From Microthrixaceae bacterium (GTDB taxonomy: Bacteria > Actinomycetota > Acidimicrobiia > Acidimicrobiales > Microtrichaceae), in contig JAMLGM010000003.1 in the NCBI GenBank assembly GCA_023957975.1, positions 252,501-316,500 of the forward strand: a stretch of DNA of 64,000 bases. Direction: 5' to 3'. Both the position numbers and the translations under genes were made by a program. Shown piece after piece: positions 1 to 5,797 of the stretch. The notes below the pieces were generated by a model, which saw only the letters and a program-made list of their open reading frames with translations, made no database searches and was not told the DNA's origin. Every line of letters begins with the position of its first letter. Positions within the stretch are counted from its first letter, which is position 1.

Positions 1-309
<309 letters not shown>

Positions 310-359
310 TTGTTCTACATGGTTGTTCGTACTTGCTATCAACTTTTCAAAGATCTTGG

Positions 360-478
360 TTTCGGTGGTTTTAGCGAGAGGGTCACACCCGTTCCCATCC
401 CGAACACGGTAGTTAAGCCTTTCAGCGCCGATGGTACTTGGGACGGGAGTCCCTGGGAGAGTAGGACGCCGCCGGATT
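360..478 (+). rRNA. rrf: 5S ribosomal RNA
   Basis: A ~118-base stretch with the conserved 5S blocks CCCATCCCGAACACGG and AGCGCCGATGGTACTTGGGA. The 5' end (TTCGGTGGT, 361-369) pairs with the 3' end (GCCGCCGGA, 469-477), forming helix I with wobble pairs. It sits about 50 bases after the 23S gene and just before a strong terminator, so it closes the rRNA operon. The ends are accurate to within a few bases. Confidence 0.95.
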
Positions 479-566: not shown

Positions 567-1280
567 TCAACCGAGGAGATCGTCGACGGCGCGGGGAACG
601 TCATGGAGCGTCGATGTGCGGCGGTACCGCGGGTGGTCCAACGGATCCTCGGCGGTCTCGAGCGCCCAGGTGGTGTGATAGGGGACGTGAACTGCCCCGG
701 CCCCAAGCCCAAGCACCGGCCACACGTCCGAATGCAGTGAGTTTCCGACCATCACGAAGCCGGCGGAGTCGATCCCGTGACGTTGAAGGACCTTTGCGTA
801 GGTATCGCTGTCCTTTTCATGCATGATTTCGACGGCGTCGAAACGTTCCGCAAGCTGGGAGGCGTCGATCTTGCGATGTTGATCCTTTAGATCACCCTTG
901 GTGAGCAACACCAGGCGGTGGCAGGAAAGGGCGTCGAGCGCGTCGTGGACGCCGTCGAGGATTTCCACCGGATGGTGCATCATCGCCTTGGCTCGTTCGA
1001 CCAGCCGAAGTATCTGTGATGTGTCGATCTCGCCATGCGAGATCGCGATAGCGGCTTCGATCATCGAGATCGTCGCTCCCTTGATGCCATAGCCGAAGCT
1101 CGGAACGTTGCGGCGCTCGGTCTCGATCAAGGCATCATGGGCCGCTTGGCGTGGGTCGGCGTGATCGGCTTCGAGGTAAGGCGCGACGAGTTCAGCGAAG
1201 AGGTCGTAGGACTCGACGAAGTAGTGCTCGTTGTGCCACAAGGTGTCGTCGGCGTCGAAACCGATCCAGATGTCGCTCAC
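567..1280 (-). CDS. HAD-superfamily hydrolase (probable phosphatase)
   Basis: A 237-residue haloacid-dehalogenase-fold protein, probably a cytoplasmic phosphatase acting on a small phosphorylated metabolite. Motif I is at residues 8-14 (FDADDTLW, nucleophile Asp plus acid/base Asp). Motif II is the Thr in VLLTKGDL with the following Lys. Motif III is GNSLHSD near residue 178. The stretch between motifs I and II forms a helical cap. The start is GTG at 1278-1280; no better ATG exists upstream in frame. It faces the rRNA terminator and diverges from the deoC-like gene across a 232-base gap in which I see no clear promoter. The substrate cannot be read from sequence. Confidence 0.85.
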   Translation of the reverse strand: MSDIWIGFDADDTLWHNEHYFVESYDLFAELVAPYLEADHADPRQAAHDALIETERRNVPSFGYGIKGATISMIEAAIAISHGEIDTSQILRLVERAKAMMHHPVEILDGVHDALDALSCHRLVLLTKGDLKDQHRKIDASQLAERFDAVEIMHEKDSDTYAKVLQRHGIDSAGFVMVGNSLHSDVWPVLGLGAGAVHVPYHTTWALETAEDPLDHPRYRRTSTLHDVPRAVDDLLG

Positions 1281-1512
1281 CGCTCAAGTGTCGCTCACCC
1301 CCCAGTTCTGCGCACCCTCGCGAGGATGGCGGTGGCTCAGCTGGAGCCGCCCGGCAGGCGCCGATGACTGGCTCCCCCCGAGAGGATTAGTCTTTATGCG
1401 GTGTGGCGTCGCTGGGGCGCCATGACGAGGATGTGGCGATGGCGAGCGCGTATGGGCGGGCACGTGGCACCGCGGAGGTCGGCGGATCGTCGAGGGCCGT
1501 CGGTGGTTTTCG

Positions 1513-2511
1513 ATGAGCGGCGGTGGAACCCTGGGCTATCGGAGAGCTTCTGGGGTCGGGGCTGGAGCGTTCACGACCTTGTCGGTGAGGCCGGTTGGCG
1601 CTCCGGTTCCGGTGTTGTCGACCGGACCCGGACCAGCCGAGCTTGGCCGTGTTGCGTTGGAGGCGGTTCGATTCGGCTCGGTCGACGCTGCTGGGCTTGA
1701 GCGCCGCGCAGAAGAACTGGGCGGCCGGGTCGTTACGGGATCCTCGCTCGCTGCAGGTCTCGATCTGACGATTCGCTGTATGGACCTGGTCGGTCCAGAG
1801 AATCTCGAGTCGGCATCGAGCGTCGCAGCGCTTGCATCACGCGCCGGCGAACCAGACCGCTCCGACCCCGCGTGTCCGGCAATCGCTGCGGTGCGTGTCG
1901 ACCCCCGCTTCGTCGCGGCCGTGACCGACGCTCTCGCAGGGTCCCCGGTGCGGGTCGTGTCGGGCACCGCAAGGATTGCGATTGGCGAGCATCGGCCATC
2001 GCAGCGGTTGGTCGAAATCGGTGAGACCGTTACCGCTGGAGCCCACGAGGTCGACATCGTCTTCGAAGGCGGGCAGCGGTATTCGGACGGTATCGATCGA
2101 TGGTACGAAGCGATCGTGGCCGCGACGCGTGCGTGCGCGCCGGCAAAGCTCAACGTCGGTCTCGAGCTCGGTGGGCTCGACGGATACCAGGAAGTTCGGC
2201 GCGCCTCGATGGTGGCGATGGCGGCCGGGGCCGACATGATCAGGATCGCTACCGGGACCCGTACACCACGAGCGTCGCAGGCCGCAGTCCTCTGCGTGAG
2301 CGAGGCGATCAGCGATTTCGCAGTGCAGAGCGGACGGCGAGTCGGTTTGAAGGTCGACGGCAACGCGCTGGGTGTCGAGCAGGCGCTGCGCTATCTGGTG
2401 ATTGTCAACGAGACGTTGGGAATCGCCTGGCTCCGCCCCGATTGGTTTCGCCTCGCATCGACGGGCCTGCTCGATGAGGTAGTCGAGCAACGTCGGACGG
2501 GGCGTTCATGA
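1513..2511 (+). CDS. Deoxyribose-phosphate aldolase-like protein lacking the Schiff-base lysine
   Basis: This 332-residue protein resembles the long actinobacterial DeoC (DERA) form, which cleaves deoxyribose-5-phosphate to acetaldehyde and glyceraldehyde-3-phosphate. The TIM-barrel landmarks are clear: AHEVDIV (residues 177-183, Asp181 matching the catalytic Asp), RRASMVAMAAGADMI (229-243), and a C-terminal YLVIVNET...PDWFRLAS block. The Schiff-base Lys, normally in FIKTSTG, is Arg244 (codon AGG at 2242-2244), and the Lys in the usual KV-I-ETG strand is Asn214. The last-strand Lys is kept (Lys280). The protein is therefore unlikely to act as a normal aldolase. The first ~40 residues are poorly conserved, so the start could be further in. 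It overlaps the next ALDH-like gene by 4 bases (ATGA), so the two are probably co-translated. Confidence 0.82.
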   Translation: MSGGGTLGYRRASGVGAGAFTTLSVRPVGAPVPVLSTGPGPAELGRVALEAVRFGSVDAAGLERRAEELGGRVVTGSSLAAGLDLTIRCMDLVGPENLESASSVAALASRAGEPDRSDPACPAIAAVRVDPRFVAAVTDALAGSPVRVVSGTARIAIGEHRPSQRLVEIGETVTAGAHEVDIVFEGGQRYSDGIDRWYEAIVAATRACAPAKLNVGLELGGLDGYQEVRRASMVAMAAGADMIRIATGTRTPRASQAAVLCVSEAISDFAVQSGRRVGLKVDGNALGVEQALRYLVIVNETLGIAWLRPDWFRLASTGLLDEVVEQRRTGRS

Positions 2512-4070
2512 CCCCAGGCGACCCCACCTTCAACGCCACGAGGTCCGCCGGCGGTTTCGCCGACTACTCGCCGGCGCTTGAGAACCGGCGACGTGTCGTC
2601 ATACGTGAGGTCTACGCCCACGTGATCGACGGGGCATTCGTGCCATCGGCCAGTTCGAAGACGCTCACGGTCGTTGAGCCGGCAACGGGTGAATCACTCG
2701 CGGAGGTGGCCTCCGGGAATGCCGCGGACGTCGACCTCGCGGTTCGGGCGGCGCGTCGTGCATTCGACAGGTTGTGGAACGACACGGACCCGCTCGAGCG
2801 CGGCAGGCACTTGTTTCGCCTCTCGCAGGTGATACGACGGCGATGCCGCGAGTTCTCGGTCCTTGGAGCGATCGAAAGCGGCCGACCGGTGCGTTGGCTG
2901 CGGGAGACCGACGGGCCGGCGGCGGTGGCGCAGATCTTCCATTTCGCTGGTTGGGCCGACAAGTTGGAGTGGGCCGTCGGAGGCGGTGTGAGACCGGTCC
3001 CCCTCGGTGTGGTGGGCGTCATCTTGCCGCCGGGGGCCGGCGTGGCAGCATTGGCGCGCTCCGTCGCTGCGGCGTTGGCAGCTGGAAACACCGTCGTGGT
3101 GAAGCCATCTCAACGCGCGTCGCTGAGCGCGTTGATGTTCGCTCACATCTGCCGCGAGGCAAGGTTGCCTCCAGGGGTGGTCAACGTGGTCACCGGCGGC
3201 GACGACACGGGGGCCGCACTCGCTGCTCACCCGGCGCTGGGGGCCCTGGAGTTCACCGGTTCGGCTGAAGCCGGCAAAGCCGTCGCACAATCGACGGCGA
3301 AGGCTGGCACCCGGTTGTTGTTGGAACTGGAAGGCAACTCCGCGCAGCTGATCTTTGACGACGCGCCGCTCGATCAGGCGATCGACGCGGTCGTGCGTGG
3401 AATTTGGCAACATCGAAGCGAGCCATGGGATGTCGCGAGCCGAGTGCTCGTCGAGGAGTCGATCGCAGAAGAGGTGGTCGACCGTCTCGCCCGGAGACTG
3501 CAGCAGGTACGGGTAGGAGACCCGCTCGACAACAACACCGACGTCGGCCCGCTCGACTCGGCCGAACAGGTGGGTCGGACTGAGGCTCTGGTGGCGGCAG
3601 CGAGGCAAGATGGGGCTGAGGTCGTTCGCTGGGCCAAGCGGCCGCCCGAGCGCGGATGGTTCGTCAAACCGACCCTCTTGCACCGAGTTGAATTGCCTCA
3701 TCGCTCGCTGGCTGAGGTGACCCGCGGTCCGGTGCTCAGCGTGTTGACATTTCGGACTCACGACGAGGCCGTAGCGATTGCGAATCAGGTGGCGTCGGGG
3801 CGGTCGGCCGGGGTGTGGACCACCGACGCTGCCCGCTCACAGTGGGTGGCCGATCAGCTGCACGCCGGGTTTGTGTGGGTGAATTCCTACGACCTGGTCG
3901 ACCCTGCGAGTCCGACTTGGGGACTCGCCCGGTCGCTGGGAGGGGACCGTGGAGGGCGGTTCGGGGTCGGTGCTTATCTCGAGCTGTCCGCCGATCGCGG
4001 CCGGTGCGAGGGCGCCAGCGCAATCGACGGGTGTCGGCCTCGACACGGCGACGGGGGAGAGACGCCATGA
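2508..4070 (+). CDS. Aldehyde dehydrogenase-like protein without catalytic Cys and Asn
   Basis: A full-length (520 aa) ALDH-superfamily fold with recognisable blocks: cofactor-binding VVVKPSQ (Lys199), FTGSAEAGKAV (249-259), the general-base Glu in LLELEGN (Glu273) and a C-terminal GPVLSVLTF block. Key catalytic parts are gone. The PWN motif reads PPG (174-176), so the oxyanion Asn is absent. The GQxC loop reads SEPW (304-307), putting Trp307 in place of the nucleophile Cys. The second Glu of the EE-x-FGP block is Val404. Normal ALDH chemistry is not expected. It lies between the DERA-like gene (4-base ATGA overlap upstream) and a half-length ALDH-like gene (ATGA overlap downstream). An active role in acetaldehyde oxidation would be the usual guess for this gene order, but these residues argue against it; a structural or binding role, or decay, fits better. 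Confidence 0.85.
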   Translation: MTPGDPTFNATRSAGGFADYSPALENRRRVVIREVYAHVIDGAFVPSASSKTLTVVEPATGESLAEVASGNAADVDLAVRAARRAFDRLWNDTDPLERGRHLFRLSQVIRRRCREFSVLGAIESGRPVRWLRETDGPAAVAQIFHFAGWADKLEWAVGGGVRPVPLGVVGVILPPGAGVAALARSVAAALAAGNTVVVKPSQRASLSALMFAHICREARLPPGVVNVVTGGDDTGAALAAHPALGALEFTGSAEAGKAVAQSTAKAGTRLLLELEGNSAQLIFDDAPLDQAIDAVVRGIWQHRSEPWDVASRVLVEESIAEEVVDRLARRLQQVRVGDPLDNNTDVGPLDSAEQVGRTEALVAAARQDGAEVVRWAKRPPERGWFVKPTLLHRVELPHRSLAEVTRGPVLSVLTFRTHDEAVAIANQVASGRSAGVWTTDAARSQWVADQLHAGFVWVNSYDLVDPASPTWGLARSLGGDRGGRFGVGAYLELSADRGRCEGASAIDGCRPRHGDGGETP

Positions 4071-4933
4071 GTTCGGTCGATCCGCGGAGAGCCTCCCCGA
4101 TGTCGACGACGTCTCGACGTCGTTACCGGCATCTCATCGGCGGTGCCATGGCCGAATCGATGTCGGGGCGTTGGGCGGAGGTGACCCTCGCCGACGGTAC
4201 GACGGCAGGGATATGCGAGGCGGACACGGCCGAGGTTTCCGCCGCGGTCGCGGCCGCCATCGACGCACGCTCGGAGTGGGCAGCGCTGGCACCGCAACGG
4301 CGAGGCCAGGTGCTCTTCGAGGTGGCAGAGGCGCTCGACGGTCACCGCTCACATCTGGTCGAGGAGTTGTGCCTCGGAGGCACCGACCGGGAAGCGGCGG
4401 AGGCGGAGGTCGCCGAGACCATCGATTGCTGGACACATTGGGCCGGGTGGGCAGACAAGCTTGCGGCGGTGTTCGGCGGCGCCAGTGCAGTGGCCGGGTC
4501 GTTCCTCGCTTCGACCACCCCGCACCCGATCGGTGTTGTCGGCGTTGTCGCCTGCGCCCGACGCCCTCTGTTTGCGTCGGCAGCGTTGGTGGCTCCGGTC
4601 GTCGTTTCAGGCAACGCGGCGGTGGTCCTGGTAGACGGATTTGCCCCATGCGGTCCGCTTGCCGTCGGCGAAATCCTCGCAGCGAACGATCTTGCCGCTG
4701 GAGTGATCAACCTGTTACACGGCCCGGCGCCGACGCTGTCATTGGCCCTCGCTGACCGGGTCGATGCGATCGCGCTGCCCGAGGTGGCCATCGGCCTCGA
4801 CCTGGTGGGGGAACTGGCGGAGCGGGCCAGCAGGCGGTTCGTGAGGGTCGTCCGCCTGAGCGATGCCCGCGATCCGCGTGGGGCAGCCGAGTTCGTCGAG
4901 TTCTCGACGGTGTGGCACCCCGCCCGCGTGTGA
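4067..4933 (+). CDS. Short aldehyde dehydrogenase-like protein (cofactor-domain half only)
   Basis: A 288-residue protein with only the N-terminal, NAD-binding half of the ALDH fold; the region that would carry the catalytic Glu and Cys is absent. Recognisable parts are WTHWAGWADKLA (122-133), HPIGVVGVVA (153-162) and VVSGNAAVVLVDG (179-191). In active enzymes the last block ends in VKPS, but here no Lys is present, and PWN is replaced by CAR. It ends in STVWHPARV. The start is ATG at 4067, overlapping the previous stop by 4 bases. A short ALDH partner may be a standing trait of this gene set in actinobacteria; I cannot verify that here. No frameshift remnant follows: the 75 bases up to tatD hold no ALDH-like coding sequence. 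Confidence 0.78.
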   Translation: MSSVDPRRASPMSTTSRRRYRHLIGGAMAESMSGRWAEVTLADGTTAGICEADTAEVSAAVAAAIDARSEWAALAPQRRGQVLFEVAEALDGHRSHLVEELCLGGTDREAAEAEVAETIDCWTHWAGWADKLAAVFGGASAVAGSFLASTTPHPIGVVGVVACARRPLFASAALVAPVVVSGNAAVVLVDGFAPCGPLAVGEILAANDLAAGVINLLHGPAPTLSLALADRVDAIALPEVAIGLDLVGELAERASRRFVRVVRLSDARDPRGAAEFVEFSTVWHPARV

Positions 4934-5008
4934 TGTGGTCGCCGATCAAGCTGAGCGTGGTCTTGGTGGGGTTTTACCCACCGGGTGGCTGTGAACGAAG
5001 CTGTAGCG

Positions 5009-5797
5009 ATGTGGATCGATAACCACTGCCATCTTCCGGCCGATCAGCCGGAACTCGTGCGTCAGCTGATCGACGAGGCGGCTGCCGGGGGCGTGGAGGC
5101 CTTCGTCAATGTCGGATGCGACCTCGCCGGGTCAGCGGCGGCAATCCGAGTCGCCCGAGATCACCCTTCGGTCTACGCGACGGTCGGCGTCCACCCCCAC
5201 GACGCGAAGGACGGCACGGACGGGATTCGCGATCTTGCGGGCGGCGACCAGGTCGTGGCGATCGGGGAATGTGGACTCGATTACTTCTACAACCATTCTG
5301 AACGCGAGGTTCAACGAGCGGTGTTCGCCGAGCAGATCGGCCTCGCCCACGAACTTGGCTTGCCGCTCGTCATCCATTCGCGCGAGGCGTGGAAGGAGAC
5401 CTTCGAGATCCTCGATGTCGAAGGGGTGCCTCGCAATACGGTGTTTCACTGCTTCACCGGAGGTCCGGGAGACGCCGAGGAGTGTCTCGAACGCGGCGCC
5501 ATTTTGAGCTTCAGCGGAATCGTGACCTTCCCATCCGCTGAGGACCTCAGGCAAGCGGCAATGATGTGCCCGCTCGACAAGATGATGGTCGAGACCGACT
5601 CGCCGTACCTCGCCCCGGTCCCGCACCGGGGCAAGCCGAACCGTCCCGCGCACGTCGCAGTCGTCGGGGAGTACCTCGCGCAACTCCGAGGGGTCGATGG
5701 TGAACACTTCGCTCAGCTGACCTCGGCGACGACTCGGTCGTTCTACGGGTTGGGGACCGACGGTGGAGTTGCGCTGAGTCGCGGAGCGGGGGCATGA
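5009..5797 (+). CDS. tatD: TatD-family metal-dependent deoxyribonuclease
   Basis: A TatD/YcfH-type TIM-barrel metallohydrolase of 262 aa that acts as a 3'-5' exonuclease on DNA in characterised relatives. The metal ligands are visible: NHCHLP near the N-terminus (HxH), GECGLDY, LVIHSREAW, FHCFTGG and ETDSPYLAPVPHRG. The start chosen is ATG 5009, giving MWIDNHCHL as in homologs; a GTG at 4985 would add eight residues. It is the first gene of the tatD - anchored protein - rsmA run, and its stop overlaps the next start (ATGA). Confidence 0.93.
   Translation: MWIDNHCHLPADQPELVRQLIDEAAAGGVEAFVNVGCDLAGSAAAIRVARDHPSVYATVGVHPHDAKDGTDGIRDLAGGDQVVAIGECGLDYFYNHSEREVQRAVFAEQIGLAHELGLPLVIHSREAWKETFEILDVEGVPRNTVFHCFTGGPGDAEECLERGAILSFSGIVTFPSAEDLRQAAMMCPLDKMMVETDSPYLAPVPHRGKPNRPAHVAVVGEYLAQLRGVDGEHFAQLTSATTRSFYGLGTDGGVALSRGAGA

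Follow-up and report, generated by a model that had tools for sequence, protein, structure and literature searches.

Two successive enzymes of one operon, an aldolase and an aldehyde dehydrogenase, have together lost catalytic residues in the genome of a Microthrixaceae bacterium. The operon lies within a 64,000-nucleotide stretch of contig JAMLGM010000003.1 (hereafter, the window) and consists of a DERA-like gene followed by two ALDH genes, ALDH-A and ALDH-B (Table 1). Pseudoenzymes are a known kind of protein, and ALDH16A1 is a close parallel; the joint loss in two consecutive enzymes of one operon is new here. We favour a retained non-catalytic assembly over ongoing decay, a new enzyme or protection of downstream genes, and we judge the chances to be even that a formerly catalytic complex has been retained as a pseudoenzyme assembly. 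The wider proposal, that the whole operon (aldolase and two-subunit ALDH16) was turned into such an assembly in one lineage, in parallel to animal ALDH16A1, is more tentative, with a probability somewhat short of even.

Table 1. Features of the degenerate operon and its surroundings (window coordinates).
Feature	Position	Strand	Description
HAD-family hydrolase, divergent conserved neighbour	567..1280	-	DxDDT motif intact; 73% identity to sister copy
Short gap upstream of DERA	1281..1512		Site of the purine nucleoside phosphorylase gene in the two sister genomes
DERA-like gene	1513..2511	+	332 codons; TIM barrel; K167R, C47R, T18V, K172T, G205N; D102 and K201 kept
ATGA stop/start overlap, DERA/ALDH-A	2508..2511	+	Sequence
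ALDH-A	2508..4070	+	Homologous to the N-terminal, catalytic part of bacterial ALDH16; Lys192, Glu268 and FTGS motif kept
ATGA stop/start overlap, ALDH-A/ALDH-B	4067..4070	+	Sequence
ALDH-B	4067..4933	+	ALDH of half length, with homology to the non-catalytic C-terminal domain of ALDH16
TatD-type hydrolase, conserved downstream neighbour	4985..5797	+	Identified by eye from translation; 67% identity to L051

A sequence-only reading of this locus had described three intact, translationally coupled frames, and the window sequence and its translations bear this out: all three are open and joined by the two ATGA overlaps. The true start of the DERA-like gene may lie downstream of 1513; its residues 1-43 are unconserved and predicted to be disordered. 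GC3 of the three genes is 71-77%, close to the 75-79% of the genes around them. A promoter and terminator scan at the operon gave nothing above chance, and no promoter was recognised. The 3′ end of a 23S rRNA (1-313) and a 5S rRNA (361-477) precede the locus on the plus strand (window 1-477), and the HAD gene converges on both. This hydrolase, intact in the window, adjoins the deoxyribose operon in several genomes (the window, L051-L053) and may be part of the deoxyribose pathway.

The comparison set comprised 83 loci with a homologous DERA, one of them (L098) from Nitratireductor and carrying its ALDH16 in fused form. All three homologues were present in 79 of the 83, as a three-gene operon with its catalytic residues intact in every case. 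The three window genes are orthologous to this intact deoxyribose operon and occupy the same locus; the identity proposed earlier, a deoxyribose catabolic cassette, holds. In the DERA and ALDH-B trees, the window copy grouped with two sisters from the same family (L051 and L052) on a very long branch; its placement in the ALDH-A tree was unsure because of the length of its branch. Both sisters have the HAD gene beside the operon, and L051 has the TatD gene there as well; downstream, L051 carries an intervening region of about 1.1-1.3 kb that the window lacks. Paralogous or horizontal origin was ruled out by the grouping with family sisters and the shared neighbours.

Divergence of the operon is far from uniform with that of its surroundings. 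Identities between the window and L051 were 45, 49 and 42% for DERA, ALDH-A and ALDH-B, whereas those between L051 and L052 were 76, 75 and 65%. The HAD gene showed no such difference (73% window-L051, 65% window-L052 and 68% L051-L052), indicating that only the operon has been accelerated and ruling out a globally fast genome.

The losses affect the residues on which both chemistries depend. In the DERA-like protein, the Schiff-base Lys167 is replaced by Arg244 (E. coli numbering, then window residue), and further changes are Cys47 to Arg128, Thr18 to Val93, Lys172 to Thr249 and Gly205 to Asn284; Asp102 (D181) and Lys201 (K280) are retained. In ALDH-A, the catalytic Cys302 has become Trp307 and the oxyanion Asn169 has become Gly176, accompanied by Glu399 to Val404, Phe401 to Arg406 and Trp177 to Arg184, while the general base Glu268 (E273) and Lys192 (K199) are kept. 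When orthologues were collected and their active sites aligned, as the sequence-only reading had advised, the window alone was degenerate. T18/C47/D102/K167/K201 were kept in 83 of 83 homologous DERAs (V, R, D, R and K in the window), and N169/K192/E268/C302 in 79 of 79 homologous ALDH-As (G, K, E and W). Because none of the 83 DERAs is changed at T18, C47 or K167 and none of the 79 ALDH-As at N169 or C302, the losses in the window are not chance. Among sites invariant in the intact set, the window copies have lost 31 of 73 (DERA), 56 of 160 (ALDH-A) and 12 of 41 (ALDH-B); each intact copy loses at most 4.

Compared with DeoC as represented by TIGR00126 and E. coli DERA, the window protein has the common barrel fold, D102 and K201, but Arg in place of the Schiff-base lysine that a functional class I aldolase of this family carries, and its scores are below the cut-offs (73 bits for the deoC equivalog TIGR00126, cut-off 117; 22.6 on Pfam DeoC, cut-off 23.8). 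ALDH-A scored 386 bits on Aldedh; it has the Glu268 and Lys192 of a catalytic ALDH and lacks its Cys302 and Asn169. AlphaFold models, which lean on intact homologues in the alignment, predicted a DeoC TIM barrel for the DERA-like protein (TM-score against E. coli DERA about 0.90, by target length; best structural matches 1jcl and 5c5y) and a kept ALDH fold for ALDH-A. In the latter, confidence was low for two loops, the former catalytic one (304-310) and the substrate one (460-483). Both proteins thus combine a predicted fold that is kept with catalytic residues that are lost; a pseudoenzyme would, in addition, still be functional.

These features could also be read as remodelling of the active sites for a different reaction. 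Very fast evolution with a conserved fold would agree with such new catalysis, as would the retention of D102/K201 in DERA and E268/K192 in ALDH-A, and the DERA barrel accepts other chemistries in design work (KE70 Kemp eliminases were among the PDB matches). However, in ALDH-A, Trp, Gly, Val and Arg stand in place of the nucleophile, the oxyanion Asn and the cofactor residues, model confidence is low in the loops that once formed the active site, and a single sequence defines no new conserved motif. We consider this explanation improbable.

The sequence-only reading had held that each of the three genes lacks key catalytic residues. This applies to DERA and ALDH-A, but not in that sense to ALDH-B, which matches just the first 207 of 461 Aldedh positions. 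Since every homologue of ALDH-B is without the catalytic half, its missing residues are the normal state of the family and not degeneration. In the window copy, the C-terminal tail still has its invariant TVWH (STVWHPARV). Bacterial ALDH16 of Loktanella sp. (PDB 6MVR/6MVS/6MVU) clarifies the relationship between the two ALDH genes: among PDB sequences, each matched 6MVR best, ALDH-A corresponding to its N-terminal catalytic part and ALDH-B matching best its C-terminal part, a non-functional cofactor domain. These matches to two parts of one protein show ALDH-A and ALDH-B to be a split ALDH16; judged by sequence, they are ALDH16 by descent, spread over two genes in the window whereas the Loktanella protein is encoded by one. 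In the ALDH16 dimer, the C-terminal domain mimics a tetramer interface.

A fused counterpart was found on a Nitratireductor thuwali plasmid (L098, 3429-7268), where deoC, a fused ALDH16 gene and an RbsD/FucU gene are consecutive. As in the window, deoC lies directly upstream of ALDH16, which is here one protein of 794 codons instead of the two ALDH genes of the window. The DERA-ALDH16 pairing therefore spans two phyla, and the gene row suggests that in Alphaproteobacteria, too, ALDH16 is part of deoxyribose catabolism. At another locus (L101, genome G443), a single open frame of 919 residues matches both ALDH-A and ALDH-B and may be a fused ALDH16 within the same taxonomic order.

Human ALDH16A1, like ALDH-A of the window, is without the catalytic Cys and Asn (PMC10650815, PMC8160307). 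It is also reported to lack Glu268, which ALDH-A retains, and it differs from ALDH-A in that the latter is paired with an equally degenerate aldolase. In addition, degeneration in the window concerns a single bacterial lineage, whereas all other sampled bacterial copies have their catalytic residues.

If the operon had simply drifted, damage to its frames would be expected. We simulated neutral change by letting the sister sequences drift until their loss equalled that of the window copy, with normal divergence subtracted. The mean number of stops was 11.0 at an equilibrium GC of 0.67 and 16.9 at 0.5, and none of 1000 runs was free of stops; the window has 0. No frameshifts were found in the three window genes, and DERA and ALDH-A have no indels relative to either sister. 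The stop codons, frameshifts and truncation that mark pseudogenes are thus missing, in agreement with the earlier suggestion that the frames are under selection. In each of the three proteins, replacements were more conservative than neutral change would give (z 2.6, 4.8 and 3.0), a signal that in DERA and ALDH-B could partly stem from normal divergence before catalysis was lost. Over the divergence measured here, evolution of the three genes has not been neutral, although their degenerate state is known from just a single genome.

The distribution of losses within ALDH-A points in the same direction. Using residue sets based on what is generally known of ALDH2, we found that 16 of 20 catalytic or substrate-side residues were lost (p=0.0018) and that 15 of 17 positions in the oligomerisation strands were kept (p=0.005); because several sets were tested, and their mapping by motif was done once the losses were already apparent, p-values for these sets are indicative. 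Invariant sites within 2 residues of catalytic or substrate-side ones were lost in 24 of 37 cases, against 32 of 123 elsewhere (p=2.6e-5, to be read likewise). Such clustering at the catalytic site, with the oligomerisation strands spared, is not what uniform drift would produce. DERA is much flatter, retaining 57% at invariant sites and about 50% elsewhere, and its active site is weakly enriched in losses (p=0.05 when invariant sites are counted, 0.32 when all are); it is therefore the weakest case for retained function.

The nearly flat DERA profile might instead mean that the frames are kept for the sake of translation, which would shield the TatD-RsmA-IspE genes (same strand, 51 bases 3′ of ALDH-B) from transcriptional polarity while the protein sequences themselves are irrelevant. 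Against this, ALDH-A and ALDH-B show site-dependent constraint, deletion would be a simpler solution, and nothing indicates co-transcription. We regard such a shield as very improbable.

The metabolic context counts against retention. A genome search found no other deoC in the window genome. Both deoA (pyrimidine nucleoside phosphorylase) and cdd (cytidine deaminase) were detected in 12 of 12 tested genomes with the intact operon, some of the deoA matches being pieces at contig ends, whereas the window genome, 98.8% complete, yielded neither and has a weak, partial match as its sole hit to TIGR02644. The purine nucleoside phosphorylase (PNP) gene that stands directly upstream of DERA in both sisters is missing there in the window, whose genome has just a weak match to the family, and a search of the gap for a PNP remnant gave nothing convincing. 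With deoA, cdd and the PNP gene missing from the genome, the deoxyribose pathway is taken to be gone, and the supply route for deoxyribose phosphate appears to have been lost.

Because these upstream genes are gone, decay in progress stays a live alternative. The operon would have become useless after their loss, its frames being open by luck or recency. Gradual decay would also fit the loss of the whole operon from most of the family, where 30 of 33 genomes have no strong match to the window DERA, the near-equal loss of conserved and variable sites in DERA, and the disappearance of the intervening downstream region along with the PNP gene. Yet drift to the observed divergence predicts stops, which are missing here, and indels, of which DERA and ALDH-A have none; the ALDH-A losses follow structure, and the partner genes vanished without trace while a 3.4-kb stretch stayed intact. 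On balance, we find decay rather unlikely, although it is the most serious rival to a retained assembly.

That only one genome carries the degenerate form also counts against retention. No second degenerate relative was found among 33 family, 395 class and 397 order genomes searched, nor in contig scans, and the degenerate state is not conserved across the class; among the genomes sampled, the window genome alone has it. Two weak family matches were discarded: the one in G018 is intact and belongs to a different type of DERA, and the one in G023 is not convincingly a DERA. The former (L097, 4243-5038, minus strand) lies near a PNP gene in a family member that has deoA, cdd and PNP and is without the split-ALDH16 operon. 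Elsewhere in the window genome (G000, C6:92720-94123, minus strand), another aldehyde dehydrogenase carries one in-frame TAG.

For the retained non-catalytic assembly that we favour, the following course may be proposed. The operon would descend vertically from a working deoxynucleoside-catabolism operon (PNP, then DERA, then split ALDH16), in which the split ALDH16 would oxidise the acetaldehyde produced by DERA. The supply side (PNP, deoA and cdd) was presumably lost in the window lineage, and the three leftover proteins, having lost catalysis, would have been kept as folded, probably still assembling, non-catalytic proteins. ALDH-A and ALDH-B most likely still form an ALDH16-type assembly, perhaps with partial dinucleotide binding, which would act via protein or ligand binding and not turnover, as thought for the human pseudoenzyme ALDH16A1. 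We infer that the three proteins are made, co-assemble and have a selected function. A complex or scaffold role for the three products, as first suggested from sequence, is plausible, given that ALDH-A and ALDH-B constitute a split ALDH16 with its oligomerisation strands retained.

Pseudoenzymes are usually single proteins that exist beside an active paralogue. Here, two successive pathway enzymes lost catalysis in one operon, the genome has no active aldolase copy left, and sisters from the same family whose operons are intact allow a clean before/after comparison. The occurrence of DERA and ALDH16 as neighbours in two phyla suggests a role of ALDH16 in deoxyribose breakdown. If the window operon is decaying, it is losing function without losing its frames. 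If the retained assembly is real, ALDH16-type assemblies would have a selectable non-catalytic role; and if the proteins are functional, they would be a bacterial counterpart of ALDH16A1 and could reveal what such an assembly does once catalysis is gone.
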